Shown here in pieces: positions 1,492 to 57,733 of a stretch of 58,070 bases of DNA. The DNA comes from a virus. Positions within the stretch are counted from its first letter, which is position 1. Every line of letters starts with the position of its first letter. The translations under genes and the position numbers were made by a program. The stretch spans positions 1-58,070 of IMG/VR virus record IMGVR_UViG_3300037508_001223, one strand, 5' to 3'. The notes beneath the pieces were generated by a model. It was given only the letters and a program-made list of their open reading frames with translations. It did no database searches and had not been told where the DNA came from.

Positions 1492-1973
1492 TGGCTCAGT
1501 ACACGACCAAAGCGGAAATGTCCAAGTTGTTTTCCGCGTGCGGTGTGGATTACCGAATCGAGGATGAGTCAGACCCGGAAAACTCGTTGGAGTTTTTCAT
1601 TGACGACGCATCTGTAATGATTGATATGTACGCTGGGCAGATTTACAATTCTTCGGATATGGCGAATTCGAAGTGGGTTCGCATTCGAGCGACTTGGATG
1701 GCCTGCTATTTTCTATCCCAGAAAAATGGCAATGCTTCCTTGTTCTTCAATAGGTACGATCAAATCCTTCAAGAGTTGCAAAAAGTCCAACAACAGCAGT
1801 TGCCTATACCTGGGCTTGCGACTTCTGTGGACATGGTTCCTACGTTGTCCAATATTGAACACGATCCTCGATACCGAGAAGCGACATTGCGGGTAGAGCC
1901 TCAAGTATCTACAGGTGCTAGCTCGTCAAAGCAAGATCTATCAAACCAGATCCTGCCAGAATGGCTATGGTAA
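1491..1973 (+). CDS. Head-tail connector (gp6-like), 160 aa
   Basis: The N-terminal half has the look of a phage head-tail connector of the gp6/DUF1320 type: MAQYTTKAEMSKLFSACGVDYRIED followed by an amphipathic helix carrying DDASVMIDMYAGQIY and an aromatic helix WVRIRATWMACYFLS. A Gln-rich helix (QELQKVQQQQLP) and a flexible tail follow. It sits immediately before the gp10-like completion gene, the usual order. A variant of the dispersed phage motif lies inside at 1711-1727. Family assignment is moderate. Confidence 0.6.
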   Translation: MAQYTTKAEMSKLFSACGVDYRIEDESDPENSLEFFIDDASVMIDMYAGQIYNSSDMANSKWVRIRATWMACYFLSQKNGNASLFFNRYDQILQELQKVQQQQLPIPGLATSVDMVPTLSNIEHDPRYREATLRVEPQVSTGASSSKQDLSNQILPEWLW

Positions 1974-1974
1974 C

Positions 1975-2508
1975 ATGGATTATCAATCCGCAAAAAAGCT
2001 ACTAGATGAGCTTCCTAAAATTTTAGGAGGACAGCCTACGGGCAGGTATACATACATTCTAAATGTATACCGAGCACATTTCTTGCATGAAATGTTCCGT
2101 TTGATACACTACTCCTTCATTGTTCGATCGGAGAGGGTGCCGGACCAGTTTGGGAACGAGTGGCAGCCTTTGAGTCCAAGGACGATCGCCAAGAAAAAGA
2201 AGCCCCATAAACGCGGTATGCTGCGTCTTCCGGCTTCCTCGACTCCTGAGTCAATCAACAGGGACACAGGCCGTCTGGCGAGGTCCTACGAGCCAGGAAC
2301 CCTTGCTGGGGCTGCTTACGTGCCGGTGAACATGGATCAGAAGGTGTCTTGGGTTGGGAGGAAGTTGGATGTTGGCACCCGAGTTCCTTACGCCAAAGAG
2401 GTGTCAAAGCTAAGACAGCTACTACCAAAAGACACACAAATCAAAATTACTAGGCTAGCAATTATTGCTGGCGTAAAGGCAATAAAGCCTATAATTGAGA
2501 AATTGTAA
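1975..2508 (+). CDS. HK97 gp10-like head-tail / neck protein
   Basis: A basic protein of 177 residues. The core WQPLSPRTIAKKKKPHKRGMLRLPASSTPESINRDTGRL...VGRKLDVGTRVPYAKEV matches the layout of phage head-tail or tail-completion proteins, in which 'W.pLs..T...K....' is followed by a GTxxPYA segment. The ATG at 1975 directly follows the previous stop, and the end overlaps the next ATG by one base. It probably forms the neck ring joining connector and tail tube. Confidence 0.65.
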   Translation: MDYQSAKKLLDELPKILGGQPTGRYTYILNVYRAHFLHEMFRLIHYSFIVRSERVPDQFGNEWQPLSPRTIAKKKKPHKRGMLRLPASSTPESINRDTGRLARSYEPGTLAGAAYVPVNMDQKVSWVGRKLDVGTRVPYAKEVSKLRQLLPKDTQIKITRLAIIAGVKAIKPIIEKL

Positions 2509-3095
2509 TGCACATTGGATACTTGGTACTAGCAGTTCGGGACGTGCTTAGGGAACGGCTTAGCCGCGATGGCTTGCCTTTCAAGCCGTTCGACCGTGAA
2601 GAGATTGAAGTATCGCCGGATGGAAGACCTCCAGCGTACATGGGATCGCGATTCATTGGAGTGTACGGTTCCCAGTGGTCTCCAGCGGTCGAAGACTCGA
2701 ACGTGGGATTGGATGCGTTGATGGGCGTCTCCTGCACGTACACGGTGCGAAGCCCTGTTTTCCCCCAGAAAAAAACCGGACCTGTCATGTATGCGGAAGT
2801 GTTGTCCGGTATGTGCTCGGTCTGCTGGGAGGTAGCCAAAGCGGTGTCAATGACCGGGGATAGCCTCACCGAAATTCCGCTTTACGAGGCTCTGGCAAAG
2901 TACCCTGATTATATTCCGTATAGCATTTTTGAGTATCTTAGGTGGCAGGGATGTGATCCTTCCCCTTCTCCGGTAACGGACGAGTGGTTCACTGCCCGAA
3001 ACGAGCATTTGATGGACGAGAACGGGCTTTCTATTGTAGGATACACCATGACGGTTCGTTTTGGCGGTGCTCGCGGAGGTTACGCTTACCGATGA
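2508..3095 (+). CDS. Tail completion-type protein, 195 aa
   Basis: A protein of 195 residues with SQWSPAVEDSNVGLDALMGVSCTYTVRSPVFPQKKTG and a C-terminal aromatic/Gly-rich strand region (YTMTVRFGGARGGYAYR). I do not recognise it with certainty; its place between a gp10-like gene and the tube gene fits a tail terminator or completion protein. A full copy of the dispersed motif lies inside at 2761-2777, here encoding FPQKKT. Confidence 0.5.
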   Translation: MHIGYLVLAVRDVLRERLSRDGLPFKPFDREEIEVSPDGRPPAYMGSRFIGVYGSQWSPAVEDSNVGLDALMGVSCTYTVRSPVFPQKKTGPVMYAEVLSGMCSVCWEVAKAVSMTGDSLTEIPLYEALAKYPDYIPYSIFEYLRWQGCDPSPSPVTDEWFTARNEHLMDENGLSIVGYTMTVRFGGARGGYAYR

Positions 3096-3451
3096 TTCCT
3101 GTAAAGTGCGAAAGTCGTGAATGCAAGCTTGTTCTGGAGAATTATCGTAGGACTTACTACGTTGATTCTTTAGAGGCTCCTTGTCCAACTTGCGGCTTAA
3201 AGGGTGGCTTGGTTCCGTGTGAACTTATCCATCTAGTCGTAGAAAGCAAGTATGGACTTATGGAGTCCAAGCTAAACGGAAAAAGGTATAAATTTGCTTG
3301 TAATACAGCAAATAATATGTACCGTAGACCCATCAACACGCCAGGATTTCCAAGATACTATACATCAGAAGTAATTGGCTGTACTTGCCCTGAGTGCTTA
3401 CTCGAATACGGGGCAAAAGAAACCAATGGAGAATTGCTGATTAACAGCTAA
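3092..3451 (+). CDS. Zinc-ribbon protein in the tail operon, 119 aa
   Basis: The start ATG overlaps the previous TGA (ATGA). The protein has three CxxC-type pairs: CESREC near the N-terminus, CPTC at about residue 31, and CTCPEC near the C-terminus, consistent with zinc-ribbon folding. The role is unknown. A short Cys-rich protein between a completion protein and the tube protein is unusual and may be a small tail or assembly factor. Confidence 0.6.
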   Translation: MIPVKCESRECKLVLENYRRTYYVDSLEAPCPTCGLKGGLVPCELIHLVVESKYGLMESKLNGKRYKFACNTANNMYRRPINTPGFPRYYTSEVIGCTCPECLLEYGAKETNGELLINS

Positions 3452-3461
3452 GGAGCTAGCC

Positions 3462-3977
3462 ATGTCTCGTGGATGGGTTGCTGGTCCATACTTGTGGACG
3501 TTCAATGGACGCAATGTTGGAATCACCGAAAACGGTTTCCGATTGTCAATGACTTCTTACGGTGATCCGATCAAAGGAGATAATCTTGGTGATTCTATCC
3601 AAGATTTTGTCTACCGAGGCGGTGACGTTACCGTGGAAGGTACGTTCCAGGAATTCGACGCCGCATTGAACGGGGACGGTCAGGCGGTAAAAGCCAACCC
3701 TAATGTGGGTTCGGTATTTTGGCCTTATGCCTCGCTAGGCGATACAGGGCAAGTAGGACGTTTGGCTAGCTCTGTTTCGGCAGTGCTAACAGGAACGGCT
3801 ATTCCTGGTGTCAATCCTCTTTTGAAGAACATCACCATTACCGCAGCCGTAATCCCCCCAGGCTTTGATGTTGGCTTCCTGTTTGCCGCTCGTTTGAGAA
3901 ACGTGCCAATTAGGCTTCAATCACTGCCGTGGCCTGGACTTGTGCAAGTCGGAAGCAGTAACTGGTTTACTTTGTAA
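3462..3977 (+). CDS. Probable tail tube protein
   Basis: A protein of 171 residues with a ribosome site (AGGAG) before the ATG. It starts MSRGWVAGPYLWTFNGRNVGITENGF and contains GDSIQDFVYRGGDVTVEGTFQEFD, the register seen in phage tail tube proteins, where an N-terminal strand names the frame and a 'G..v.ie......' strand follows. It lies directly before the Gly/Ala-rich tape-measure-like gene, the usual order. Assignment rests on position and beta-rich character. Confidence 0.6.
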   Translation: MSRGWVAGPYLWTFNGRNVGITENGFRLSMTSYGDPIKGDNLGDSIQDFVYRGGDVTVEGTFQEFDAALNGDGQAVKANPNVGSVFWPYASLGDTGQVGRLASSVSAVLTGTAIPGVNPLLKNITITAAVIPPGFDVGFLFAARLRNVPIRLQSLPWPGLVQVGSSNWFTL

Positions 3978-4918
3978 TGTCAAGCATTAGCATAGATGTT
4001 AATGTCAATCAACCTCCCGGAGGTAGCTCTTCGGGAGGTGTTCCGCCATCTCCCGGAGGAACTGCTTCTCCACCGGGCGGGAGTCCTACGCCTCCTGGTC
4101 CTGGTGGCGGTTCTTCATCACCAAGTCTGCCTTCGACTCCAATACCGCCAAAGCCGCCTGGACCTTCTCCAGGGGCTGGGGCAGGTGCTGGCGGTTCGGC
4201 AGGGGCTGGTGGATCTGCTAGTGCGGCTGGAGGAGCGGCTTCTACCGCAGGTGGAACAGCAGCAGGTGGAGGAGGGGCTGCCGCCGCTGCTGGCGGAGCT
4301 GCGGCTATCTTAGGGCCATTAGCTATTGCTGGTGGGGCTGTTATCGCGGCTTTTGCGGGTACTGTTATTGCGGCAAAAGCGGTAGATGATGCTCTTACAG
4401 ACATTGCTAGAACCGCAAGAAAATACAATCCAGAAGTGGCTGTAGCTACTGCGATGGCTAATGTTCAAGCCATGTTTGCGGATATGGAGCAGGCTAATCG
4501 ACTAGGCCCCGAATTGGCTAGCTACGTGACTGAGAGAGCTGAAATAGCAACAATTCTCAAGAAAATAGAGACAGACATTGCGGAAGATATACTTCCTTTA
4601 GCTATCGACTTAGCAAGAGGCGTATCCGCAATTCTGACCTGGATGAAGGAAGTCTACAAGCAATTTATCTCTCCTGTCATTCAATTGTTCAACAAGCAAG
4701 GTGGTTGGAATCAAGCTTTAATTTTGAATATGTTTGGACTTCCAGGGCAGTTAGCTGCTATATTGAAAGCGGCTAACCTGATAGCCGGGAATACAGCCCC
4801 GAAAACTCCAGGAGCCGCCTTCTTTAAGGATTACGAAAAGTTCATTGATCCTTTGCAGCAAGCTTCTCCTCTTGTTCCACAAGGCGCTCCTGGTATACCT
4901 CCGATTGGAAAACCGTAA
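3977..4918 (+). CDS. Short tape-measure-like protein, 313 aa
   Basis: Residues 10-100 are low-complexity Pro/Gly/Ser and then Ala/Gly repeats. A hydrophobic stretch follows (AILGPLAIAGGAVIAAFAGTVIAAKAV, shown in part), then amphipathic helices (DIARTARKYNPEVAVATAMANVQ). Hydrophobic helices after low-complexity sequence are typical of tape-measure proteins, but 313 residues is very short. If it is the tape measure, the tail would be only a few tens of nanometres long by the usual length rule. It overlaps both neighbours by one base. Confidence 0.5.
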   Translation: MSSISIDVNVNQPPGGSSSGGVPPSPGGTASPPGGSPTPPGPGGGSSSPSLPSTPIPPKPPGPSPGAGAGAGGSAGAGGSASAAGGAASTAGGTAAGGGGAAAAAGGAAAILGPLAIAGGAVIAAFAGTVIAAKAVDDALTDIARTARKYNPEVAVATAMANVQAMFADMEQANRLGPELASYVTERAEIATILKKIETDIAEDILPLAIDLARGVSAILTWMKEVYKQFISPVIQLFNKQGGWNQALILNMFGLPGQLAAILKAANLIAGNTAPKTPGAAFFKDYEKFIDPLQQASPLVPQGAPGIPPIGKP

Positions 4919-7077
4919 TGGCTTTTGGCAGTCCCCTTCCAGTACCGGTGCCTTGGCTTCTTAACGAAGCTTTCGATATGTCCGCTTCCGTAAATGGAAA
5001 CGTGACATCTGTGGACACGTTCATTACATACGGAAGCTACGTTTTCAATTCCGCGATAAGTTTCAAATTTCAAGTCGAGCCTGTGTACGGGGACGACAGG
5101 ATCATCCCCAAGTATTACAAGCATACTTTCACGGTCGAGACGGTTCTTACGCCGCATACCAATCCGCAGTATGACGCTACAGGCACTCAGCCTTTGGACT
5201 TGAACGAATCACAAGCCCGTAGGGATTTGTCGATTCCCGGCCTACCTTTTTACATCTGTGCAAAAGGTGTTGGACAGAATCAAAGAATTGATCCCCAGTC
5301 TAAAACTGGGCCAGTATTTGCTGCTCCTGGTAACAATAAAAACCAAGATCCTGTTATTGATGGCGTCTTCGGAACGGCTGATCCGGTAGACGTAGGAACT
5401 CTAGTATTTCGCGTTGAACCAGGAATGGATTTGAATTATGGTCCTCGACCCGTAGTTCAAATTCTTGAGCCAATTGGTGCTTCAAGGGTTTACCGACTTG
5501 TCTGGAGCGTTGAAGTATGCTTGCCGATTTGCTGCGTTAGCTACCAGAACAACGCAGGCCAACCTGTTTACTGCCTCACTCCGTACAACCTTGAAACCCA
5601 AGCCAAGTATGACAACCCCATTACGGAGTTTGTCTACGACATCTCTTGGTCGATTGATGAGCTAGGCTACTCGAACCGAACTATTTCAGGATCTGCTGAG
5701 ATAGCCGGTCGTTTACTGCAAGACATGCAGTACACCAGTCCTACGGTGCAAGCGGTTGGTCCAGTATATCAGGTGAAGGTGGTCAATGACACGTTCGTAA
5801 AAAACATGATAACCACCATGTTTCCTTACCTGAAAGGTTTTAAGAGGACAATTTCTTACGACGTGGGAAGAGACGCCAAGCGGCTTGATTGGCGTATTGT
5901 GGACACGGAATTGAAATCGGAAACTCCGTACTACAAGAACGTCATAGATTGCAATGCCACAGTATCTTTAAGAAGCCAAGGAGATGAACCAGCTTTTACG
6001 GTATGGGACTACGAAATCAAAGGTAGTTTTACGGTAGTGCCGGGAGCTTCCAAATACCAAGCTTACTTGGCGTTCTTGACTATCGTTAAGTCAAAATTAA
6101 CTACAGCCATCAATGTTCAAAATGGTATTCCCATAATGAACAATAAAGGCGTGCTGCTGCCAAAAAGCTCTTCGTATCTTCCGGTAAGCCATTCTTACGA
6201 GGAAGATGTATTTGGAAGAAGCATGTCGTTTGATTTTAGGTACAGACTTGTTTCTAGCTTGGAAAATCATCTAGTATATAGTGAGTTGTTCGTCCCTGTA
6301 CGCCAAGGTAACAATACTTGGGATGCTTGGCTTAGCGGTATTCCCAACAACTTGAAAACGGGACAAGGGGCTGTAAACTTCAATTTGCAAGGCACTAGAA
6401 ATCTAGTCAACACCTGCAACTTTGGTCCGATGGAGCCTAGTTACGGACAGAAGTCTCCAGCAGTGCCTCCCGAAGGCTTCATTAACATCTTCACCCTGAA
6501 CTGTCCTCCTCCAGAAAAAAGCTGGTTGGAGTACAAGAATTGGTACGAGATTATCGACTACAAACCAACAATCCAACACGTTCCTTCTTACAATTACCCA
6601 AATCAGTATTACCAAGACAGTCAATACTACGGCGGGTATCCTAACCATAATTTGGAGTTCCCAACGGGCGGTACTTCGTCACAAGCAAGTGCGGCTTATG
6701 CTATGGGAGCGTCTGACGAGTCAGGCCAACCTACTGTCCAGAAAATGGGTGCGGGTAAAACCTACATTGTAATGAAGGGCTATGCGCTTCGATACTGCTA
6801 TCAAATAAAGCCGCCAATGCTATACGCGGTAAAGATAGCAGGTGTCAATCAAGTAATGCAGCCTATCCAAGTGTCTAGCCGAACTGTACTAGATAAAGTA
6901 GTAGGTCAATCTGGTAAAGTACGTTTGATTTTTTCCTCTTGGGAAATTGTATACACAATTCCTAGACCTCTTAATCCTTCGGTTAATTTCATCAAAGAGC
7001 TATTGACCGATGCCGAAGGTGAGCAGTATATTTCTCAAGCGGACTTCAAGAACATTTACCAACCTCCTGCACTGTAA
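4918..7077 (+). CDS. Large tail protein, 719 aa
   Basis: A 719-residue protein without signal peptide or membrane segment, rich in Tyr, Asn and Pro, with beta-strand-like spacing throughout and a Tyr/Asn/Gln-rich stretch (YNYPNQYYQDSQYYGGYPN) near residues 560-580. It follows the tape-measure-like gene with a one-base overlap, so it is probably a distal tail or hub component. I do not recognise a family. A weak copy of the dispersed motif (CCTCCAGAAAAAAGC) lies at 6505-6521. Confidence 0.5.
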   Translation: MAFGSPLPVPVPWLLNEAFDMSASVNGNVTSVDTFITYGSYVFNSAISFKFQVEPVYGDDRIIPKYYKHTFTVETVLTPHTNPQYDATGTQPLDLNESQARRDLSIPGLPFYICAKGVGQNQRIDPQSKTGPVFAAPGNNKNQDPVIDGVFGTADPVDVGTLVFRVEPGMDLNYGPRPVVQILEPIGASRVYRLVWSVEVCLPICCVSYQNNAGQPVYCLTPYNLETQAKYDNPITEFVYDISWSIDELGYSNRTISGSAEIAGRLLQDMQYTSPTVQAVGPVYQVKVVNDTFVKNMITTMFPYLKGFKRTISYDVGRDAKRLDWRIVDTELKSETPYYKNVIDCNATVSLRSQGDEPAFTVWDYEIKGSFTVVPGASKYQAYLAFLTIVKSKLTTAINVQNGIPIMNNKGVLLPKSSSYLPVSHSYEEDVFGRSMSFDFRYRLVSSLENHLVYSELFVPVRQGNNTWDAWLSGIPNNLKTGQGAVNFNLQGTRNLVNTCNFGPMEPSYGQKSPAVPPEGFINIFTLNCPPPEKSWLEYKNWYEIIDYKPTIQHVPSYNYPNQYYQDSQYYGGYPNHNLEFPTGGTSSQASAAYAMGASDESGQPTVQKMGAGKTYIVMKGYALRYCYQIKPPMLYAVKIAGVNQVMQPIQVSSRTVLDKVVGQSGKVRLIFSSWEIVYTIPRPLNPSVNFIKELLTDAEGEQYISQADFKNIYQPPAL

Positions 7078-7594: not shown

Positions 7595-9098
7595 GAAGAA
7601 AAAGTTCGACACGACTAACGCTCCTTCCGAAGACACGATGGCTTACGAGCCATCAGGTTTTGAAGGAGGGGTTGACCCATCGGCAAATTCCAATATGCTG
7701 ATGGACGCCGCACCGCCGAGCGAGCTGGACTACACTCCCCCTAAAGACGCTCCACGCTTTCCGGGTGCGGCCAATCCCGACGTTAAAGTTGATGCGGACG
7801 CCCTTCTTCATTCTACGCCGATCAGCGAAGATTATGTCCCGTGGGGAACCTACGGGATGTGGGGCTACTACGGATTCCTAAATCGTAATAGGCCCCCTTT
7901 CACGTACTACACTGTGCGTGAGATGCTTTGCGACCCTCGGGTGATCTTTGGTCTTTGGCTAATCAAAGGGCCGATCATCTCGAAGAGCAAATTCGAGGTG
8001 GAATGTAGTCGTAGCGACGTTACCGATTACATCAATAAAAACCTGAAAAGGTTCATGCAAGTCGCGGCTGGCCGGGTTCTCAAGGCCCTTGAATGGGGTT
8101 ACTCGGCCTCGGAAGTGGAGTATCGGTACAACTCGGAAGACCATCGAATCTACTTCGATAACGTCCGGGATTTGGAATCTCTCGACTGCCGTCCTGTAAC
8201 CAAGCAGGGATCTATCTGCGGCTTCCTCGTGCGGAACATCAAGCCAGTGCGGACAGCCGATCAGTTTGCGGAATCTCTCGATTACTCGGGCGATTACTTC
8301 AAGCCGAACAAGGGGACTCCACCAGCAAATGATGGACGAAGGTACATCGGCTTCCCGAAGGGGTTGTACCACATCCATCAACGCGACCGGAATCCTTGGT
8401 TTGGGCTTTCCCGATTGTTCGGTGCTCACGTTCCCTGGTGGGAGCAGTGGAGCGAGGATGGCTACCGAGCCATTCGACGGCTTTGGTATCTGAAGAACAG
8501 CTTTGACGGCGGCACCCTTTACCATCCGCCTGGGCAGATCGCCACAACCACGGGTCCGAAGGCTACTCGGGACTACGCCCGCGAGATGCTCGAAAAAAGG
8601 CGTGCTGGAGGCGTCCTGACGCTTCCTAACACGACGGGACCGGATGGTACGGGTAAAGCTTGGGAATACGTCCCACCCTCGGGAAACCCTGTCCCAGCGG
8701 GTTTATTGGAGTACGGCAATCTTCTCAAGGACGAGGTGCTGGAAGCTTTGGGCATTCCTCCAGAGATTATTTCTTCTGGAGGAGAAACGGGATTCGGCTC
8801 TTCTTCGGGTCGGCAAGTTCCTCAGATGGCGTTCTACTCAGTGTTGCTGGAATTGATCCAGTGGCTGGTACTTGACTTTGACAAGCAGGTCATGCGATAT
8901 TTGGTAGGTCTCAACTTTGGAGCAGATGTCCAATATGAGATTACAGCCCAACCGCTCGAAGACGGGTCGAGTGTCCAATCGGACCCCAACGACCCGAACG
9001 CTCCCAACAACCCGCTTGACCCCAACAACCAGTTGGCAGGTCAAGAGATCCCGCCAGACCAAGCAGCGGATCAAAACCAGCCGCCTCCCAACGCCTAG
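7587..9098 (+). CDS. Portal protein
   Basis: A protein of 503 residues with a Lys-rich disordered N-terminus and a core similar to DUF935/Mu gp29-type portals: YTVREMLCDPRVIFGLWLIKGPI, then AAGRVLKALEWGYSASEVEYRY and HQRDRNPWFGLSRLFGAHVPWWEQW. The C-terminus ends in a charged Asn/Pro/Asp/Gln tail (SDPNDPNAPNNPLDPNNQ). I chose the ATG at 7587 because longer upstream extensions read through the previous gene in another style. It is separated from the capsid genes by the window edges and from the terminase by 38 kb here, which a circular map would shorten. It ends one base before a copy of the dispersed motif. Confidence 0.75.
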   Translation: MAKKKKFDTTNAPSEDTMAYEPSGFEGGVDPSANSNMLMDAAPPSELDYTPPKDAPRFPGAANPDVKVDADALLHSTPISEDYVPWGTYGMWGYYGFLNRNRPPFTYYTVREMLCDPRVIFGLWLIKGPIISKSKFEVECSRSDVTDYINKNLKRFMQVAAGRVLKALEWGYSASEVEYRYNSEDHRIYFDNVRDLESLDCRPVTKQGSICGFLVRNIKPVRTADQFAESLDYSGDYFKPNKGTPPANDGRRYIGFPKGLYHIHQRDRNPWFGLSRLFGAHVPWWEQWSEDGYRAIRRLWYLKNSFDGGTLYHPPGQIATTTGPKATRDYAREMLEKRRAGGVLTLPNTTGPDGTGKAWEYVPPSGNPVPAGLLEYGNLLKDEVLEALGIPPEIISSGGETGFGSSSGRQVPQMAFYSVLLELIQWLVLDFDKQVMRYLVGLNFGADVQYEITAQPLEDGSSVQSDPNDPNAPNNPLDPNNQLAGQEIPPDQAADQNQPPPNA

Positions 9099-9118
9099 TT
9101 CTCTCCCAGAAAATAACC
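9099..9118 (+). repeat. Dispersed phage motif copy
   Basis: TTCTCTCCCAGAAAATAACC fills the whole gap between the portal stop and the next ATG at 9120. No Shine-Dalgarno sequence is present there apart from the motif. Confidence 0.85.
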
Positions 9119-11702: not shown

Positions 11703-12185
11703 ATGCCGATAATGTTCAACAACGGGGTTCTTCTAATAAAGCCTGCTGGTGTGGCTATGGACCCTGCTTGTTGTTGCGGTGCTAAATGCTATTGTATTCA
11801 ACAACTTCCAAATACCCTGTATCTTACCGTTGACTTTTGTGGAACTAACGTAATAGAATTAACGCTCTACGATGAGTTCATAAGCAACGATAAAGGAAGC
11901 TGTATAAAATACTACAGCGGTAGCGGAACATTTGGAGCAGGTCCAGGTATTGGGTTCTTTCGCGTGGCTATAGGTGCAGATTCCGATCCAGCTTCGTTTT
12001 TCTTGAAATATTGTTTTGACGGATGTACTACGGGTGAGTGCGTAGATCCGACCAATACCAGTTTGTGGCCACCTTTCAATAGCATAGATTGCGAACCTTT
12101 GTACGGCGAGATTACATCAGCAGCTCCTCCTAGCGCTTGCGGTGGTAGTTGCATAGATCCTTGGACTTTGGTTATAACAGAATGA
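11703..12185 (+). CDS. Cysteine-rich small virion-type protein
   Basis: A protein of 160 residues with at least 15 cysteines. It begins MPIMFNNGVLLIKPAGVAMDPACCCGAKCYC, an N-terminal pattern of a short hydrophobic strand followed by a CCC cluster, which I associate with small proteins near tail genes of phages and prophages. The remainder has regularly spaced Cys (FDGCTTGECVD, SACGGSCIDPW). It shares Cys-rich character with the C-terminal domain of the preceding protein. Either disulphide or metal binding is possible. It overlaps the next gene by four bases. Confidence 0.5.
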   Translation: MPIMFNNGVLLIKPAGVAMDPACCCGAKCYCIQQLPNTLYLTVDFCGTNVIELTLYDEFISNDKGSCIKYYSGSGTFGAGPGIGFFRVAIGADSDPASFFLKYCFDGCTTGECVDPTNTSLWPPFNSIDCEPLYGEITSAAPPSACGGSCIDPWTLVITE

Positions 12186-13834
12186 ACACTATATCATTCA
12201 AAGATAAGATCCCTGGACATCCTCGTGAGTGTAAAGGAGTTAAAAGCTCGACTTATACACCCGACCAATGTCGGATGTGTTGGCTTGCGACTTATAACCT
12301 ACACTATCGTAGACTTTGGAAAATTAGCCTTCCCAAAGAAATAGAATACTCTGTAGGGCCAGAGGAATACTATGGCTGTATCCATAGGAACCCTGAAAAG
12401 GTGGTGCAACCTGGATGCAGCTCTTGCTCTGGAATTTCTTACGTACACAAGTGTTCTAGTGAAAAAGCAGGACCAGGGTGGTGCTTTGTCGAGCTACTAG
12501 GCAAAGGTAGCTCACTATCCAGAAACAACGGCTACCGGGCTTGTGCCGAGTGTGGGTTTCGAGAGCCTGAGGCCGACTTGGAGATGCCTGTAGTTCAGTT
12601 CATGGAACTGCTCAACAAAGATCCTTCGGTTCTCCCTGATGGCTGGAGAAACTGGAAGGTTACTACCCAAGCTTACAAGACAGCTCTCCTGGAACAATCC
12701 AACGCCTCCTATTCCTATCCCAGAAAAAAATACAACGGCCGAGGGATCGTCATTGGGGCAGGAGGGGAGATCTACTTCAAGTGCGCCTTAGCCTCTGTAG
12801 CGGCCCTACGAGCCTCTGGGTGCTTCTTGCCGGTCCAATTCTGGTATTTGGGCCGGGAAGAGATGGACGCCCGTATGGTCAACTACGCTCGCTCTATTGG
12901 GGTCGAGTGCGTTGACGCCTCATCAGTAGTTCGCACCTTGGAGAAAAAGCCAAGGATTCTGTACGGTTGGGAGTTGAAAGCGTTTGCGATGATACATTGC
13001 CCTTTTGAAGAGGTGATGTATTTAGATGCCGATTGTATTGTAGCTAGAGACCCTAGTTATTTATTTTCAACAGAACAATACTTAGAGCATGGATCTATTT
13101 TTTGGCCGGATCTTTCCAACACGCCCGCTCCAGCTCCGTCAAAGCAGTTTTGGGAATCCCATGGAATGTTTGCCGATCCTGGTCCTGATTTTGAATCAGG
13201 GCAAATGGTTATAAACAAGGGCCGATGCTGGCGTGAGCTTCAAGTATCACAGTGGATTAACGAACACAGTGATTGGTTCTATCAACACATGTACGGTGAC
13301 AAAAGCACCTTTCGCGTAGCTTGGAGAGCTTGTGGTACTTCGTATGCGATGCCTCAAATGCCGGATTGGCGATGGCCTTCTATCGAGCAGTACGACTTTG
13401 AAGGCAATCTTGTGTTTCAACATTGCTGCCAAGGAAAGCCTCATCTTGTAGAAGGTCACGAGCTTTCTGTGTTGAAATACAGTCAAGTCGTATTAGAGGC
13501 CAAAAATGCTTGGTCAAAAAGCTGGCCTGGATCTTTGTACTATCCTAACTACAAAGCAATTGAAGGTTTGTACAAGATAGAGTCTACAGGCGAAGTTTTA
13601 GACTTCAAACCTTGTGGTAAAGTAGAAGTCACTATTACAGGATCTATCTTAGTAGACTCTCTTAGAGCCGACAAATACAGATGGGGCGTAAACGCCGATG
13701 AGCTAGTCTTGATTGGATTAGGAAAACGCTATCCTGGTGAAGGGCGATCTTGGCGAAAAGGGGTGATTGACTTCTTAAAGCGTACGGACAATGGCTGGAA
13801 AGGTTCAAAAATCACTTTAGTTCCAGCGTCTTGA
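12182..13834 (+). CDS. Glycosyltransferase with Cys-rich N-terminal domain
   Basis: A protein of 550 residues from the ATG at 12182 (ATGA overlap). Residues 1-145 hold many CxxC-like pairs (CRMCW, CSSCSG, CAECG). Residues from about 190 form a GT-A-type glycosyltransferase: GIVIGAGGEIYFKCALASVAAL, then VMYLDADCIVARDPSYLF with the metal-binding DxD at residues 282-284, then FESGQMVINKGRCW. This resembles MNN1/alpha-mannosyltransferase-like enzymes. It could modify a virion protein or a host glycan. A motif copy lies inside at 12714-12731. Confidence 0.7.
   Translation: MNTISFKDKIPGHPRECKGVKSSTYTPDQCRMCWLATYNLHYRRLWKISLPKEIEYSVGPEEYYGCIHRNPEKVVQPGCSSCSGISYVHKCSSEKAGPGWCFVELLGKGSSLSRNNGYRACAECGFREPEADLEMPVVQFMELLNKDPSVLPDGWRNWKVTTQAYKTALLEQSNASYSYPRKKYNGRGIVIGAGGEIYFKCALASVAALRASGCFLPVQFWYLGREEMDARMVNYARSIGVECVDASSVVRTLEKKPRILYGWELKAFAMIHCPFEEVMYLDADCIVARDPSYLFSTEQYLEHGSIFWPDLSNTPAPAPSKQFWESHGMFADPGPDFESGQMVINKGRCWRELQVSQWINEHSDWFYQHMYGDKSTFRVAWRACGTSYAMPQMPDWRWPSIEQYDFEGNLVFQHCCQGKPHLVEGHELSVLKYSQVVLEAKNAWSKSWPGSLYYPNYKAIEGLYKIESTGEVLDFKPCGKVEVTITGSILVDSLRADKYRWGVNADELVLIGLGKRYPGEGRSWRKGVIDFLKRTDNGWKGSKITLVPAS
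12714..12731 (+). repeat. Dispersed phage motif copy (intragenic)
   Basis: CCTATCCCAGAAAAAAATAC inside the glycosyltransferase gene, in the frame that reads YPRKK. Confidence 0.7.
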
Positions 13835-14392: not shown

Positions 14393-14856
14393 TGCACAGT
14401 TCCACTTGGAAAGCTTTTGAGCGTCGAGTTGCCGTGGATTTTGGGTCTACCAGGAACGCCTTGTCGGGCGGCAACTCCAAGGTAACTCGATCCGATTCCT
14501 TGCATCCACGACTGTTTATCAGTTGCAAGCATGGTCTTCGCAGCGCCTTCTGGAGTCTCTACCTGGAGGAGTTGCCGAAAGCCAAAAAGGAGGACAAGAC
14601 TGTAGTGCTCTGTCTTGGAAATAAAAACCATGAAGGGTACTTGGTCGCCTGTCACAGCAATGATCTCCAAAGCCTAGTCTGCGAGTATCTAATCTCTAAA
14701 GGCTGTACAGATCTAGCTTTAGAGCTAGCACAACGCGCCGCCTCTTCTCTCCCAGAAAAAATAGTTAGGGGAGTTGACTCAAAGCCTTCCTTGGTCTACT
14801 ATTCAAACTACCAAGGAGGTGGCGGATGTCTAAAAGAAAAGCGTACAAGCCATTGA
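14392..14856 (+). CDS. Holliday-junction resolvase-like nuclease (Hjc-type), altered active site
   Basis: A protein of 154 residues. WKAFERRVAVDFGSTRNALSGGNSKVTRSDSLHPRLFISCKHG matches the PD-(D/E)XK resolvase-like pattern of phages, where an ER..A..fG..R...SGgnS..T..D..hP.l..E.K order is usual. The Asp is present (SDSLHP), and the Lys too, but the position expected to hold Glu two before Lys is Ser (ISCK). The enzyme may be inactive or use a different residue. A copy of the dispersed motif and a promoter for the next gene lie inside its 3' end. Confidence 0.55.
   Translation: MHSSTWKAFERRVAVDFGSTRNALSGGNSKVTRSDSLHPRLFISCKHGLRSAFWSLYLEELPKAKKEDKTVVLCLGNKNHEGYLVACHSNDLQSLVCEYLISKGCTDLALELAQRAASSLPEKIVRGVDSKPSLVYYSNYQGGGGCLKEKRTSH
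14743..14762 (+). repeat. Dispersed phage motif copy (intragenic)
   Basis: CTTCTCTCCCAGAAAAAATA, about 11 bases upstream of the -35 box of the promoter at 14774. In frame it reads SLPEKI. Confidence 0.85.
14774..14802 (+). promoter_or_regulatory. Sigma70-like promoter
   Basis: TTGACT at 14774, 17-base spacer, TACTAT at 14797, inside the end of the resolvase-like gene. It is followed by AAGGAGG and the ATG at 14826, so the leader would be short. Confidence 0.6.
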
Positions 14857-15902: not shown

Positions 15903-16762
15903 AAAAGAAAATGAGAATTCCTGGTCCTGAAGAGCTGAATGAGCCGCCCGAGAAGCTGCTGAGCTATTTCATCTTCATCTTTGGCGAGAAAGGTATCGGC
16001 AAGACCAGTTTGATTTCCCAGTTTCCTGGAGCCGTTGTGGGGATGCTGGAACCGGGACGAAGAAACCTTCGTATTCGGCAGGTTGACATCACTGCTGGCT
16101 GGGAGACTGTGGAAGCGTTTGTCGATGCGGCGATCGAAGATGACACGGTTCAGACGATTGGCCTCGACACGGCCGACCGGTTGTACGAATCGGCTTTGGA
16201 CTACGTGTGCGAATCCAAGGGCATTGACCATCCTGGAACTATCAAGGATTTTGGAGCTACGTGGCGAGAGATCAAGGACACCTTTGAAGGACTTCTAACG
16301 AAGATCCATCACAGTGGAAAAGGACTTGTCCTAACGTCCCATGCCAAGTGGCGTGACCTGGAGCTTCGCAATGGAGCGGTGCAGCCTATCTTAAGCCCCA
16401 CATTGTCAGACTCACCTTTGACAACGATTAAGGCTATGGCGGACTACGCTTTTTATTATGGATACTATGGAGGTGGTCGCCGGGCATTGTTCCTGCGAGG
16501 GCATGAAGACCTCTGGTGTGCTTGCGGCAGCGCTGATCGGTTCTTGGACCCGGAAGGGCACCCGATCAAGACAATGCTGCTGGGTGAGTCGCCAGCGGAA
16601 GCTTTTGAGAGTCTGGACAAGGGGTTCGGCAATCAAATGCTGGATGCGGACGATGCCCTTCGCCAGGAGCTTGGAGACGACGTTGACACCGATGATCTCT
16701 CCCAGAAAAAAACCACGATTCCTTATCGAAAGAAAAAGAAGAAAGATAAGGACGGGAGTTGA
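15899..16762 (+). CDS. Sak4-like RecA-fold ATPase (AAA_24 type)
   Basis: A protein of 287 residues with a Walker A motif GEKGIGKTS at residues 29-37, a Walker B-type strand VQTIGLDTAD, and GKGLVLTSHAKWRDLE, which fits the AAA_24 family that includes Sak4 single-strand annealing proteins. It follows the RecB-like nuclease with overlapping start and precedes an SSB-like gene, the typical phage recombination trio. The C-terminus is Lys-rich (KKTTIPYRKKKKKDKDGS). A dispersed motif copy lies in its 3' end. Confidence 0.75.
   Translation: MKKKMRIPGPEELNEPPEKLLSYFIFIFGEKGIGKTSLISQFPGAVVGMLEPGRRNLRIRQVDITAGWETVEAFVDAAIEDDTVQTIGLDTADRLYESALDYVCESKGIDHPGTIKDFGATWREIKDTFEGLLTKIHHSGKGLVLTSHAKWRDLELRNGAVQPILSPTLSDSPLTTIKAMADYAFYYGYYGGGRRALFLRGHEDLWCACGSADRFLDPEGHPIKTMLLGESPAEAFESLDKGFGNQMLDADDALRQELGDDVDTDDLSQKKTTIPYRKKKKKDKDGS
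16696..16714 (+). repeat. Dispersed phage motif copy (intragenic)
   Basis: TCTCTCCCAGAAAAAAACC in the 3' end of the Sak4-like gene, frame reading LSQKKT, 45 bases upstream of the promoter at 16759. Confidence 0.9.
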
Positions 16763-42201: not shown

Positions 42202-42203
42202 AG

Positions 42204-42242: not shown

Positions 42243-42458
42243 CTATTCAGCCTCCCACTTCGCGATCGTCTTAAGAATTACCTCAGCATCAAAAATTGTA
42301 AGATCCACGAATGACAAGCCTGTAACAAGAGGATCGCACTTTGAGCCTTCTCCTTGTTCTTGCCGAAGTTGTTTTAGGTTGATATCAAGTACCAACCTAG
42401 CACTTCCCACGATGCCTTGGAGCTTATAGACAAGTTGCCGTCTTTTTTCCGGTATCAT
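42243..42458 (-). CDS. Small helical protein, 71 aa
   Basis: A 71-residue protein (MIPEKRRQLVYKLQGIVGSARLVLDINLKQLRQEQGEG) with no recognised domain. Start overlaps the end of the DUF3310 gene by one base. Confidence 0.55.
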   Translation of the reverse strand: MIPEKRRQLVYKLQGIVGSARLVLDINLKQLRQEQGEGSKCDPLVTGLSFVDLTIFDAEVILKTIAKWEAE

Positions 42459-42915: not shown

Positions 42916-42934
42916 GGTTATTTTCTGGGAGAAG
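42916..42934 (-). repeat. Dispersed phage motif copy
   Basis: On the - strand CTTCTCCCAGAAAATAACC, upstream of and oriented with the DUF3310 gene. Confidence 0.8.
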
Positions 42935-42941
42935 AAGAGTC

Positions 42942-44342: not shown

Positions 44343-44585
44343 TTAGTCCTCCGACTGCCAGATAGCTAAGCGTACTACTGGGTAAATCATTTTTCCTGGA
44401 AAAGACCATCCGTGGCGTCTAATTGACTCTGCTTGAAGCCATCCTACAATAGTTTCTATGTTATCGCTGCACCATTTCTTGCCTTTTTGGTTCATTTCCT
44501 TGATATGAGCTAGACAAGGACATCCTTCTTCGATTTTTTGGCCTAATTTTGCTAGAATTTGGTGTAGTTTGTCTCCTGGTTTCAT
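44343..44585 (-). CDS. Phage small conserved-type protein, 80 aa
   Basis: MKPGDKLHQILAKLGQKIEEGCPCLAHIKEMNQKGKKWCSDNIETIVGWLQAESIRR has a CxC..H...MN..G..WC..N...I..WL pattern that I have seen repeatedly in short phage proteins near early genes; function not known. It may bind a metal through CPC, H and C. Co-directional and one base from the next gene. Confidence 0.6.
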   Translation of the reverse strand: MKPGDKLHQILAKLGQKIEEGCPCLAHIKEMNQKGKKWCSDNIETIVGWLQAESIRRHGWSFPGKMIYPVVRLAIWQSED

Positions 44586-44841: not shown

Positions 44842-44881
44842 TGACTACTCCTAGGCTTGGTTACGTGATTCAGACTAGGGA

Positions 44882-44909
44882 ATCTTACCACAAGCCCTAA
44901 TAGAGTCAA
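44882..44909 (-). promoter_or_regulatory. Sigma70-like promoter (minus strand)
   Basis: On the - strand TTGACT, 16-base spacer, TAAGAT. It drives the gene at 44841 and the whole minus block. Confidence 0.7.
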
Positions 44910-44945
44910 TGGGAGTGGGAAAATTTCTTGGGAAATCCCAAAAAT

Positions 44946-44966
44946 GGTTTTTTTCTGGGAGAGAAG
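44946..44966 (-). repeat. Dispersed phage motif copy
   Basis: On the - strand it reads TTCTCTCCCAGAAAAAAACC, upstream of the minus promoter and oriented with it. Confidence 0.9.
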
Positions 44967-45048
44967 AGGTTTAGGTACTTGACTCCCCTTTCCCCTTAAG
45001 CTAGCCTAGGAGCGCAGCGACGACGGCTAGCGCTACTCTTCTCCTTCT

Positions 45049-45062
45049 CCCTATATATAGGG
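45049..45062. promoter_or_regulatory. 14-bp perfect palindrome
   Basis: CCCTATATATAGGG, operator-like, between the two divergent promoters. Confidence 0.55.
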
Positions 45063-45080
45063 GGAAATCCCAATAGATTA

Positions 45081-45099
45081 TCTCTCCCAGAAAATAACC
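45081..45099 (+). repeat. Dispersed phage motif copy
   Basis: TCTCTCCCAGAAAATAACC, + orientation, in the divergent control region. Confidence 0.9.
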
Positions 45100-45137
45100 T
45101 CTTTAGAGTAGATTATCCCATAGGGGATAAGCCCATC

Positions 45138-45157
45138 TTCTCTCCCAGAAAAAAACC
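45138..45157 (+). repeat. Dispersed phage motif copy
   Basis: TTCTCTCCCAGAAAAAAACC, exact consensus, 17 bases upstream of the probable -35 box at 45174. Confidence 0.95.
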
Positions 45158-45173
45158 ATTTTTCAGTAAGGGG

Positions 45174-45202
45174 TAGACTTGAGCTTTCTCTTGGAGTAGA
45201 CT
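45174..45202 (+). promoter_or_regulatory. Weak sigma70-like promoter
   Basis: TAGACT at 45174, 17-base spacer, TAGACT at 45197, upstream of the gene at 45234. Confidence 0.4.
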
Positions 45203-45233
45203 CCTAGAGTCAACCACTATCCAGGAGAACCAA

Positions 45234-51484: not shown

Positions 51485-52825
51485 TTAGGTAGCCAAGCTA
51501 TCTGCAATGCTTGGACTGTTGTTAGTAGGCATTTGATATCCGAATGCCTTTCGGAACCAAGTTTGAAACACACCAGCATCGTCATTGCTGATAGTGAACA
51601 CAAATTTATCTCCTGCAAGGAACTTGCTAGTTCCTGCCACGATGGCGACATTCACGCCATTCACGTAGGTTACTGGACCCATTACCAGTCCGTCGATATA
51701 AACCGACTTTCCTGAGGTAAGAGTTCCCGTAACCTTGATGACTAGTTTCAAGTCGTCAGGAATTTCAAGTGGCAAGTTCACGTAGAATTTCTTCAACGTG
51801 TAGCTAGTAGCCGCACTTAGGGCGGTAGCGTCCATCTCGATCTTCTCAGTCGCTCCTGCCGTGTAACCAGTTCCTTCAAACTGGATCGTCAAAGTGCCTG
51901 CCGAAGTAGCTGTAGTTCCACGAACCCAAACGGCTACCACGTAGCGTTTCAGTGCGGTTAGCCCAGATTGGTTTACAGCTTGGCTAATGCTGATGGTTCC
52001 TTGTGCTCCATCACCGGTGTAACGCAAAGCGGAGGAACCTCGTTTTACGACCGAGGTTTCTTTGACGATATGCGTTCCAGTAGTTCCAGAGACAATAGTC
52101 CAACTGGCTGGAGTATTTGTCGAGAACAGTTCAAATTCGCCGTTGGCGATAAAACTGTAGCTGTTCAACGGCTGAATAGTAGTGTTTGTTCCACTACCCG
52201 GAGACAAGTAATGGTACAACCCAGGACTTGTAGGTTTACCTAGCCATTGGAAGCTTTCTCGGCCTTCCTGGACTAGCCCATTCTCGCTGTCTGTAGAACA
52301 TACAACATTGATGCTGTCATCTTCAGCAAGTTGGCTAGTCAAACCATTGTAGCCTTTGTAGGCAGGCATACTAGTGCCTGGAGGGGTGACACCATCCAAA
52401 ACAGCATCCACTAAAAGCTCACCAACAGAAGCATTAGTGGAAGTCGTGGTTACAGATCCCAATGTCACCACGCTCTTGGTCACATGTTGGCTGTTTGCCA
52501 CCATGTCCGCGATCAGAAGAGGCATCACCTCGTTCAACGAACTTCCAGAGCCGATGGGAAGTTCCTTCAGGATCAACTCTCGATCGGTGAGCAACTTTGT
52601 AGCTACTTGGTTGTTGATTTGGCCAATCCAAGAGAACACGTTGTTCTTGAAACCAACCCAAGTATCGGGGATGGACTGTAGAAGGGCAAACTGGCTGTTA
52701 GAGCTGTAAACACTCTGAACTGCGGAAAGATCAGTATCCAATTCTCCGTAGTACGCTTTGACGTTATTCACACCTTTGACGAGCTTACCAAGCATCGTGA
52801 AAAGATTCGTATAATTGATTGCCAT
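51485..52825 (-). CDS. Fibre-like virion protein with carbohydrate-binding-type domain
   Basis: The ATG at 52825 follows GGAGGACAAGT. The 446-residue protein has a helical N-terminal part (NYTNLFTMLGKLVKGVNNVKAYYGELDTDL), a linker, then a jelly-roll-like region from about 240 (SYSFIANGEFELFSTNTPASWTIVSGT...GSSALRYTGDGAQGTISISQAV) of the type found in carbohydrate-binding modules. It is on the opposite strand within the structural region, so it has its own promoter and may be an exchangeable fibre or decoration gene. Virion location is inferred. Confidence 0.55.
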   Translation of the reverse strand: MAINYTNLFTMLGKLVKGVNNVKAYYGELDTDLSAVQSVYSSNSQFALLQSIPDTWVGFKNNVFSWIGQINNQVATKLLTDRELILKELPIGSGSSLNEVMPLLIADMVANSQHVTKSVVTLGSVTTTSTNASVGELLVDAVLDGVTPPGTSMPAYKGYNGLTSQLAEDDSINVVCSTDSENGLVQEGRESFQWLGKPTSPGLYHYLSPGSGTNTTIQPLNSYSFIANGEFELFSTNTPASWTIVSGTTGTHIVKETSVVKRGSSALRYTGDGAQGTISISQAVNQSGLTALKRYVVAVWVRGTTATSAGTLTIQFEGTGYTAGATEKIEMDATALSAATSYTLKKFYVNLPLEIPDDLKLVIKVTGTLTSGKSVYIDGLVMGPVTYVNGVNVAIVAGTSKFLAGDKFVFTISNDDAGVFQTWFRKAFGYQMPTNNSPSIADSLAT

Positions 52826-52911
52826 ACTTGTCCTCCGGTTTTCGTTTGTGGAAAAAATCGATTTTTGATATCGTAGCCGAATCAGCGAAAAAACCAAACA
52901 AGAAAGCCGTC

Positions 52912-53578: not shown

Positions 53579-54943
53579 ATGCCAAAATTCGTCAAAGACA
53601 TTGTAACCGCCGGAAAGTACGTCTTGCCTGATGGTAAAGGCGGATCTCGTGAAATCGCGATCACGACGGAGCGGTTGCAAAGATGGGCCGAAAACTTTGA
53701 AAAGCAGCGTAACAGCGGCTTGCATATTCCGGCTCCGGCTTTGCACGACTTTGAAAAGGGCATTCCTGTCCGAATGGGGCAGGACGGCACTCTGCGAAGC
53801 TCTGCGGACAACCTAGGCTTCTGGGACTACGTTTGGGTCGATCCCGAGACCAAGACGCTTAAAGGCGTTCTGGACGCTCCTGGGAGCTTTGACGACCCGA
53901 ATACGCCTGCTGGCAAGGTCGGCAAGACGATTCGGGAGACCTCGATCTACGTGGCTCCCAAGTGGAAGGACGGTTCTGGTACGGAGTGGGACGAGGCTGT
54001 GATGCACATTGCGTGCGTTACCCACCCTATTGAAAAGAGCCAAGCCAATTTCCAGCCTGCGGATGATGGGCTAGCGATTGCGATGTCCTTCAAACAAGCG
54101 GATTCTTCTAATGCTTCTTCGCCTTCTGGCGAACCTGTAGACCCCAACAAAGTCTTGGGGAGCAAAAGCACTGAATACGCCACTTCGGTGGATAACGGCC
54201 GAATTGCCGAGGTCATTACGCTACTTCGAGATGTGGCCAAGATTTCTCTCCCAGAGAATACCACTCAAGACAATATCGTCGAACGCCTTTTGATTGCTCT
54301 CTCCCAAAAGGCTATCGAGAACGAAGAAGAGGATGAGGGCGGAGTCAGTCAACCACCGGAGGGGGCGCAACTAAGAAATGCCCCGTTTGTGATGAGTTTT
54401 TCCCAAAAGCAAATCGAGGCGTTACTGAAGGTGCAGAACCCGGAGACCGGCAAGCCGTTTACTCCAGCCGAGCTTAAGGCTGTTGGTGAACCTGCCGCTG
54501 ACGTGGTGATGAGCCATCCGAAGGTCAAGGAACTGGAGAAGAGTTCGCTCATTCTCTTGAACACTGTGACCGAGCAGGCCAAGGCCAATTATCGCAGCCG
54601 TGCAGCCGCTCTTGTGGCTAGCGGACGAGCGAACAAAGCCTACGTGGACAGCAAGATCCTTCCCATGGTGGAAGCGGTTGTCATGTCGTTTGGCGAGGAC
54701 GGCAAGCCTGCTGTCCAACCGATCGACACGGTTCTGGACGCTCTGGAAGCCGCTCCGGCGATTGCCGCTCCTCCGAGCGTTCCGAACTACGCGGACTTCC
54801 TGGCGATGTCCCATGGAGGCTACCAAGTCCATGGATCGCTTCCGCACCCGGTTGAAGATCCTGGCAACGGCGAGGCTCCGATTACCGCTGATGCGGCGAC
54901 CGCTGTGTTTGGTCGGTTGAAGCAGGCAGGGCTTCTGGCCTAA
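53579..54943 (+). CDS. Prohead protease/scaffold (Mu I-like)
   Basis: A protein of 454 residues. The N-terminal 160 residues (TAGKYVLPDGKGGSREIAITTERLQRWAENFEKQRNSGLHIPAPALHDF...DNLGFWDYVWVDPETKTLKGVLDAPG...IRETSIYVAPKWKDG) follow the Mu protein I-type phage peptidase layout. The C-terminal half is helical and rich in charged residues, as expected for a fused scaffold domain. Position before the decoration and capsid genes fits. A motif variant (CTCTCCCAGAGAATACC) lies at 54243-54261. Confidence 0.7.
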   Translation: MPKFVKDIVTAGKYVLPDGKGGSREIAITTERLQRWAENFEKQRNSGLHIPAPALHDFEKGIPVRMGQDGTLRSSADNLGFWDYVWVDPETKTLKGVLDAPGSFDDPNTPAGKVGKTIRETSIYVAPKWKDGSGTEWDEAVMHIACVTHPIEKSQANFQPADDGLAIAMSFKQADSSNASSPSGEPVDPNKVLGSKSTEYATSVDNGRIAEVITLLRDVAKISLPENTTQDNIVERLLIALSQKAIENEEEDEGGVSQPPEGAQLRNAPFVMSFSQKQIEALLKVQNPETGKPFTPAELKAVGEPAADVVMSHPKVKELEKSSLILLNTVTEQAKANYRSRAAALVASGRANKAYVDSKILPMVEAVVMSFGEDGKPAVQPIDTVLDALEAAPAIAAPPSVPNYADFLAMSHGGYQVHGSLPHPVEDPGNGEAPITADAATAVFGRLKQAGLLA

Positions 54944-54947: not shown

Positions 54948-54969
54948 TTTCTCTCCCAGAAAAAAACCA
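54948..54969 (+). repeat. Dispersed phage motif copy
   Basis: TTTCTCTCCCAGAAAAAAAC, five bases after the protease/scaffold stop. Confidence 0.9.
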
Positions 54970-57096: not shown

Positions 57097-57122
57097 GACG
57101 GGATTACGTGGATAACAAGACG

Positions 57123-57155
57123 CTCCCGTCGTTGACAACAGCGATGGGAGTTTCT
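57123..57155 (+). terminator. Intrinsic terminator after the capsid gene
   Basis: CTCCCGTCG and CGATGGGAG form a 9-bp stem (one G-U) with a 10-base loop, followed by TTTCTGTTTC. Confidence 0.75.
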
Positions 57156-57191
57156 GTTTCAGGCCCTAGAATAAGGTAAGGGGCGTGATGA

Positions 57192-57530
57192 GTGTCGGAC
57201 CAAGAAAAAACCTTGCTCCTTCTTCAGTCGGCGACAGTAGCGACAACATTCCTGGCGTCGGCTGTACTAGGGGGAATCGGATGGGTTCAGAGATCCAGCA
57301 ATCGGACAAAGCTTGGCTGCGTAGTGGCATCAGCGAACTGTGGTGCTGTAGGCTTTCTTTTTGCAGGAGTGCTCTTGGTGTACTCGCAAGAAGCTTACCT
57401 ACAAGCTTTTATGAGTGGTGCATCGACGGGGTGGATCACGGGAAGATATGGTCTGAAGAAACTACCCGAAATCCTGGGTCTCTTGATGCGTGTTCTAAAA
57501 GTGTTGAGAGACGAATCAATGAAGAGATAG
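57192..57530 (+). CDS. Membrane protein, possible holin, 112 aa
   Basis: GTG start after AAGGGGCGTGATG. Two or three hydrophobic stretches: TVATTFLASAVLGGIGWV, GCVVASANCGAVGFLFAGVLLVYS and a short third. A short basic end follows (LMRVLKVLRDESMKR). Length and topology fit a holin, but no lysin lies next to it, so the role is open. Confidence 0.55.
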   Translation: MSDQEKTLLLLQSATVATTFLASAVLGGIGWVQRSSNRTKLGCVVASANCGAVGFLFAGVLLVYSQEAYLQAFMSGASTGWITGRYGLKKLPEILGLLMRVLKVLRDESMKR

Positions 57531-57559
57531 GCTTAAAGATTCTAGGAGCGATTGCTCCA

Positions 57560-57733
57560 ATGGCCTTTGTGGTTATCTGTATGTTTGGGATGTTCTTCGG
57601 CCTGCTTAACCTCCAGAAAATAAACGCTTACGCCAATGTACCAAAGTCCATTGAAGTGGCTCCAAAGCCTGTCAACACTTCCACAAGCGGTGTTGGGTTG
57701 GTTTCGTTCGACTCCACCGCCCGAAACTGGTAG
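57560..57733 (+). CDS. Single-membrane-span small protein, 57 aa
   Basis: MAFVVICMFGMFFGLLNLQKINAY: one hydrophobic helix then a polar tail ending FDSTARNW. GGAG is 14 bases upstream. A motif variant lies at 57609-57624. Longer upstream frames overlap the previous gene in another frame and are less likely. Confidence 0.45.
   Translation: MAFVVICMFGMFFGLLNLQKINAYANVPKSIEVAPKPVNTSTSGVGLVSFDSTARNW

Follow-up and report, generated by a model that had tools for sequence, protein, structure and literature searches.

A dispersed polar motif under nucleotide-level selection in a family of uncultivated tailed phages

The virus record IMGVR_UViG_3300037508_001223 (58,070 bases, hereafter the window, that is, the whole stretch of DNA analysed) derives from a tailed phage, whose genes include those for portal, head and terminase, and carries about 30 copies of an asymmetric motif in which a pyrimidine tract is followed by CCAGARAA. 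This motif is selected at the level of the nucleic acid, also inside genes, and is a trait of a family of uncultivated tailed phages, recurring in dozens of relatives in lineage-specific spellings. We tentatively favour the reading that the motif is a double-stranded DNA recognition site through which a conserved phage protein would gate transcription.

Motif copies and selection in the window

The 20-mer TTCTCTCCCAGAAAAAAACC occurs in the window at 17 sites with three or fewer mismatches, against a dinucleotide-shuffle mean of 0.02. A weight matrix seeded from these copies and then iterated gave 25 sites of at least 20 bits (the copies meant in all counts of 25 below) and 34 when the threshold was lowered to 15 bits; the top score in the reversed window sequence, used as a control, was 13.2 bits. 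A first-pass annotation of this DNA had listed 20 strong copies; every one is present, with positions off by a few bases at most. Fifteen of the 25 copies lie within genes, where 200 synonymous-codon shuffles gave a mean of 0.69 and a maximum of 3, and these copies fall equally into the three reading frames (5/5/5). The earlier claim that use of all three frames reflects selection on the nucleic acid is thus borne out, and the codon-preserving shuffles proposed alongside it left the signal intact. At 1711–1730(+) (21.3 bits, in gene 1491–1973), where the relative G398 has a conserved peptide at the same spot, and at a few other in-gene positions, protein constraint may contribute through conserved peptides.

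Chance or a codon artefact as the source of the motif is ruled out by the shuffle and synonymous-codon comparisons and by the third-position and outgroup comparisons given below. Sharing of the motif with hosts or other viruses was likewise rejected, as exact 16- and 17-mers occur there only as isolated single matches, at about the chance level.

A family trait with lineage-specific spellings

Single-protein peptide searches returned no close relatives. A terminase alignment that included distant Planctomycetota and archaeal-phage homologues led to relatives at 45–57% terminase identity, which have many virion and replication genes in common with the window. The core YYYCCAGARAA occurs 4–7 times per genome in several of these relatives, with a mirror control near zero. 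Two of them, G405 (IMGVR_UViG_3300042444_000372) and G408 (IMGVR_UViG_3300043395_001804), together hold 73 sites of at least 12 bits (4 in the reversed control), spelled as a pyrimidine tract and then CTCCAGAAA; TTTTCTTCCAAAGAG occurs 33 times in G403 (IMGVR_UViG_3300005683_000005) and CTTTCTTTTCAGAGAAAT 17 times in G409 (IMGVR_UViG_3300043184_000041), with zero in either control. In most other relatives, a common-start motif search arrived at this architecture as well; the contigs that carry it have the head module in common. Across 28 family loci (449 kb), YYYCCAGARA was found 123 times, compared with 13 for the mirror pattern and 8–19 for single-base changes, whereas 58 outgroup loci (579 kb) gave 11 versus 15 for the mirror, that is, background. 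The absence from related phages that the first-pass annotation had named as grounds against its claim therefore did not occur. Planctomycetota contigs of high GC content whose head genes are distantly related do not carry the motif, and the distant head-gene match in a few Planctomycetota genomes gives no more than a weak lead to the host. The window head gene (53579–54943) and the major head protein were matched by none of 50,697 annotated phage records, and no sequenced isolate of the motif-bearing family was found.

The motif is under purifying selection on its nucleotides, in and between genes. When G405 and G408 (79% nucleotide identity overall) were aligned, nearly every alignable site was kept and the core CCAG columns were fully identical. 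Third codon positions were 96.7% identical in the motif core versus 63.8% elsewhere (P = 1e-9); the matrix was drawn from both genomes, which may have introduced a modest ascertainment bias, although one unlikely to yield this difference. At third positions of the pyrimidine tract, a pyrimidine was kept in 98% versus 84%, with the pyrimidine state preserved without a strong preference for T or C.

Similar gene junctions are occupied across lineages with different spellings. In the window, G403 and G401, the 53579 gene is followed, past its stop, by a site (in the window a perfect copy at 54949–54968(+), 5 nt past the stop and 21 nt before ATG 54990); a site lies at or near the junction of the portal-like gene with the gene starting at 9120 in the window, G409 and G403 (in the window 9099–9118(+), 30.8 bits, which occupies the gap between the stop at 9098 and the ATG at 9120); and the window has a site just past the HDEL codons of the DNA polymerase gene (20393–20412(+), 18.0 bits, directly 3′ of them), with sites nearby in G405, G408 and G403.

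Other repeats were observed in these genomes. G409 contains a second over-represented repeat, GTATCCGTATC, in 8 copies, as well as a motif variant, GAATACTTTTCAG. G405 and G408 share an over-represented 10-mer, TAATAAATTC (6 and 9 copies versus about 0.1 expected), some copies of which lie upstream of gene starts, with a CATTGCAT-like sequence then following.

Placement, promoters and spacing

The claim that copies sit at gene ends or just after stops holds in part. Ten of the 25 copies are intergenic (2.5 expected; P = 9e-5), an enrichment that is present but weaker in six relatives, and copies are frequently found directly after stop codons; the other 15, however, lie inside genes without a strong 3′ bias. 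Copies within genes include 2758–2777(+) (30.0 bits, gene 2508–3095), 6504–6523(+) (24.8 bits, gene 4918–7077), 12713–12732(+) (24.5 bits), 22239–22258(+) (28.3 bits, primase gene), 23152–23171(+) (27.6 bits, ParB-like/DUF4417 gene), 24210–24229(+) (27.9 bits, gene 23961–24338), 35716–35735(+) (31.7 bits, FGE-sulfatase-domain gene) and 54244–54263(+) (22.0 bits, gene 53579–54943), together with an antisense copy in the portal-like gene at 8767–8786(-) (20.5 bits). The copy at 18910–18929(+) (24.0 bits) is close to the 5′ end of the DNA polymerase gene, that at 33081–33100(+) (21.8 bits) is close to a gene end, and that at 42916–42935(-) (27.2 bits) precedes the start of gene 42458–42901(-) by 14 nt.

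Seven window sites have a predicted sigma70-like promoter downstream on the same strand, with 9–44 bp between the site and the start of the −35 element, as had been claimed. These are 14745–14764(+) (25.9 bits; TTGACT-17-TACTAT, 9 bp), 16695–16714(+) (29.9 bits; TTGACA-17-TAGTAT, 44 bp), the intergenic 27612–27631(+) (25.2 bits; TTGACA-16-TAGAAT, 14 bp), 29230–29249(+), which abuts the stop of the UvrD-like gene (26.9 bits; TAGACA-17-TAGATT, 12 bp), 32602–32621(+) (31.1 bits; TTGACA-17-TACACT, 9 bp) and the perfect copies at 44946–44965(-) (TTGACT-16-TAAGAT, 36 bp) and 45138–45157(+) (TAGACT-17-TAGACT, 16 bp). An independent promoter score placed 7 of 26 window sites above the 95th percentile of random positions (1.3 expected), and likewise 4 of 19 sites in G409 (1.0 expected).

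The two perfect copies belong to a divergent control region (44842–45233) that separates a minus-strand block from the terminase operon. Three copies point outward in it, upstream of both predicted promoters, the third being 45080–45099(+) (28.0 bits); the perfect ones form a 28-bp perfect inverted pair. Within 44925–45135, three GGGGAAATCCCA-like palindromes were also seen beside the motif copies.

Regular spacing was considered and rejected, the intervals (mean 1.7–2 kb) being indistinguishable from random. A long bare stretch in the window runs from the terminase onward (45.2–54.2 kb; for this gap alone P = 0.2, not significant), and G405 also has a bare stretch from the terminase into the head genes, its gaps again not being significant. 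Sites for genome organisation (that is, condensation, segregation or control of DNA entry) bound by an architectural protein would fit copies dispersed through genes and gaps, the A-tract and the bare stretch common to the window and G405, yet the irregular spacing and non-significant gaps speak against such sites, and polarity and promoter adjacency would be left unexplained; we consider this reading very improbable. Two foreign-looking modules had been described as free of the motif, which is nearly so: one weaker site, 38560–38579(-) (19.3 bits), lies in the first of them. Other weaker copies are 44387–44406(-) (17.2 bits) and 57606–57625(+) (19.1 bits).

Orientation and the question of a strand-linked site

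Most copies had been said to point with transcription. By hand count, 22 of the 25 window sites run along the local gene direction, the others being 8767(-), 31758(-) and 42203(+). Family-wide, the claim weakens: the ratio of main-strand to reverse copies is 83:32 in main-strand genes, 33:15 in gaps and 6:5 in opposite-strand genes (Fisher P = 0.30), and a block of plus-strand genes in G405 has 4 minus and 2 plus copies. Among top sites the strand ratio is 20:3 in the window, 4:19 in G405 and 4:18 in G408, and about 70–85% of copies have the main-strand orientation (about 70% family-wide). Orientation is thus biased toward the main gene strand, the family-wide counts being compatible with either transcription or genome strand as its basis, and a following of local transcription is not clearly seen across the family; given the opposite-strand genes and the G405 block, orientation cannot serve as proof of a transcription function.

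This pattern bears on the main rival to transcription gating, a replication- or packaging-linked single-strand site at which strand-specific nicking, priming or processing would take place, as in the phages T5, phiKMV and tf, whose virion DNA is cut at a strand-biased motif. Such a site would account for the strand bias that persists in the oppositely transcribed G405 block, for a core spelling that is near-constant across divergent relatives, and for the many in-gene copies at their mean spacing; the tf-type motif behaves in a like manner, being scattered, for the most part inside genes, with conservation in 61 relatives (PMC11780129; PMC3517423). However, 15–30% of the family copies lie on the minority strand, while tf-type nick motifs have been reported from a single strand, gap enrichment and promoter adjacency would be unexpected, the outward copies of the divergent region go with transcription, the spacing is random and the sequence is unrelated to known nick motifs. 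On balance, we regard a strand-linked site as possible but somewhat doubtful.

Two copies that run against their local genes lie between a stop and a start: 31758–31777(-) (28.9 bits; stop 31759, GTG 31780), where GGGAG stands at ribosome-binding distance from the GTG, and 42203–42222(+) (28.7 bits; flanked by stop 42243 and ATG 42201, both belonging to minus-strand genes). By eye, these and similar copies in G403 and G405 suggested that reverse copies act as ribosome-binding sites, but 12 of 144 versus about 10 expected is not significant and the idea was rejected.

Action on RNA or on double-stranded DNA

A further rival holds that the motif acts once transcribed, as an RNA that is C-rich and G-poor and then purine-rich and that would be bound or cut, leading to pausing, Rho-type termination, antitermination or processing. 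The main-strand orientation of most copies, the retained pyrimidine state and the frequent position directly past stops would all agree with this. Against it, neither covariation nor extra folding energy between the site halves was detected in five genomes, the energies being no better than with permuted halves, and an RNA hairpin at the motif was rejected accordingly; Rfam gave no match at motif sites and matched only a tRNA. Action at the RNA level is also awkward for the outward copies at the divergent region, where two of the three perfect copies, lying upstream of both predicted promoters, may lack sense transcription, and most copies in the G405 plus-gene block would be antisense. We consider an RNA-level site unlikely. 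The lack of RNA structure, the copies upstream of promoters (probably outside transcribed leaders) and the conservation at silent sites together point instead to a double-stranded DNA site.

Gene content and the absence of detectable lysogeny genes

Besides its virion genes, the window encodes a family A DNA polymerase, a primase, a Sak4-type annealing protein, an exonuclease, a UvrD-like helicase and one tRNA. Among the window open reading frames (ORFs) scanned, none was recognised as coding for a repressor, an integrase or an RNA polymerase. Phage_integrase (PF00589), Resolvase (PF00239) and HTH_3 (PF01381) were not found in 13 family records (the window and 12 relatives), with positive controls, in searches that did not separately exclude repressors outside these families or parABS. 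With regard to the motif as a promoter for a phage polymerase or phage sigma factor, no Sigma70_r2 domain was found; the search for a single-subunit RNA polymerase matched none of the control genomes and so carries no information on such an enzyme. Terminal repeats in G403, G405 and G409 suggest that these three genomes are complete, and the lack of lysogeny domains in records that include them argues against an immunity system, although an unfamiliar repressor is still possible. Immunity stoperators proper, at which a prophage repressor would block elongation, therefore seem most improbable, even though 20–30 asymmetric and mostly unidirectional copies, in promoters and gaps, match what is described for cluster A mycobacteriophages (PMC6550527; PMC9283540).

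The left end of the window is incomplete: a 28-kb contig (G001), the sole other record with this sequence and 100% identical to it, continues for 584 bases beyond it. This end (1–983; L011 13042–13625) falls within a repetitive gene whose repeats, of about 120 bp, are imperfect. Elsewhere, 25278–27392 holds five successive small lysine/arginine-rich ORFs, two of which begin with a near-identical MASRKVQAKI, with a strong local AT skew (0.285). A conserved gene at 51485–52897(-), opposite to the terminase strand and between the terminase and the 53579 gene, is found in the window and nine relatives; it has no family match and, in those genomes that were checked, does not contain the motif. An FGE-sulfatase-domain protein (35497–36597) and a mannosyltransferase-like protein (12149–13834) are also encoded.

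Proposed function

Polar transcription gating appears to be the likeliest job of the motif, given its enrichment at gaps, at post-stop junctions and, in the window and G409, at promoters. We envision that a conserved phage-encoded DNA-binding protein recognises each copy as double-stranded DNA and that the bound copies control RNA polymerase in a polar manner: copies upstream of promoters or at gene junctions would insulate or gate transcription units, and copies within genes would pause or stop elongation. Such an array would work in the manner of stoperators but, in a phage in which lysogeny genes were not detected, would set the timing of gene expression and not confer immunity.

Several observations weigh against this proposal. 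The same promoter score revealed no promoter adjacency in G403, G405 or G408, which leaves the evidence for a transcription role moderate; the majority of the window copies are in genes; orientation does not clearly follow local transcription; the core spelling is nearly constant across much of the family, resembling a replication or packaging site more than a fast-evolving operator; and no binding protein stands out among the conserved genes. The ParB-like/DUF4417 protein and a TerS-like helix–turn–helix (HTH) protein are candidates for the binder, and only that. The gene for the TerS-like HTH protein (36712–37563(+)) lies about 8 kb from that for the terminase large subunit (45695), with a minus-strand block between them; in the relative G406 the TerS-like HTH gene adjoins the terminase. 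A broader and somewhat less probable picture is a polar DNA address system, in which one conserved protein would recognise the roughly 30 sites and thereby orchestrate transcription in the lytic cycle, with replication or packaging possibly included.

Comparison with known systems

The stoperator of cluster A mycobacteriophages is a 13-bp GGTGGMTGTCAAG-like sequence. The first-pass annotation had likened the motif to these sites while calling the sequence unrelated, and the latter is correct, as the consensus here is a pyrimidine tract with CCAGARAA. The likeness in pattern is partial. Cluster A phages (for example, L5, Bxb1 and TipsytheTRex) carry 20–30 asymmetric stoperators, mostly in one direction and some in promoters or gaps, with a spelling that varies among related phages (PMC6550527; PMC9283540). 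The window matches them in copy number, asymmetry, strand bias, gap enrichment, promoter adjacency and lineage-varying spelling. It differs in that its motif is about 20 bp long and mostly inside genes (gap sites being enriched yet a minority), in that repressor and integrase were not detected in the family, and in an orientation that is less strict family-wide and a core that has changed little over wide divergence. As neither a location mainly in gaps and promoters nor the repressor and integration genes of that class were found, we do not file the motif as a cluster A stoperator.

The nick motifs of tf/Rembedalsseter, phiKMV and T5 are also dispersed, strand-biased, mostly in genes and conserved across a divergent group, as is the motif in the window family. 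The window motif is longer, has a pyrimidine tract, occurs on both strands, is enriched in gaps and is unrelated in sequence. The SPbeta repeated element (SPBRE), a 15-bp repressor site bound by MrpR in promoter regions of a temperate prophage (PMC10516654), is likewise a repeated phage-genome element associated with promoters, but SPbeta is temperate and a Phage_integrase-type protein was not found in the window family. SAS/ESAS and other repeats of cluster K, EC, EF, EG and EI phages number 5–12 and lie in short intergenic gaps near gene starts, and in some of these phages no repressor or integrase has been identified (PMC7302621). They share with the window a repeated motif in carriers that may lack such genes, whereas the window has about 30 copies, mostly in genes, and the start-site association of reverse copies is not significant.

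So far, dispersed polar sites have mostly been described as stoperators of immunity systems or as nick motifs of unexplained role; here, phages without detectable lysogeny genes keep such sites under strong nucleotide-level selection, which bears on the role of dispersed strand-biased motifs in lytic phages. The spellings in the window, G405/G408, G403 and G409 offer a natural comparison for tracing a co-evolving binding protein. Taken together, the motif resembles a control or processing site of a kind not described before more than it does a standard immunity system. It is new, dispersed and family-wide, and among known kinds of site it stands nearest to stoperators and nick motifs.

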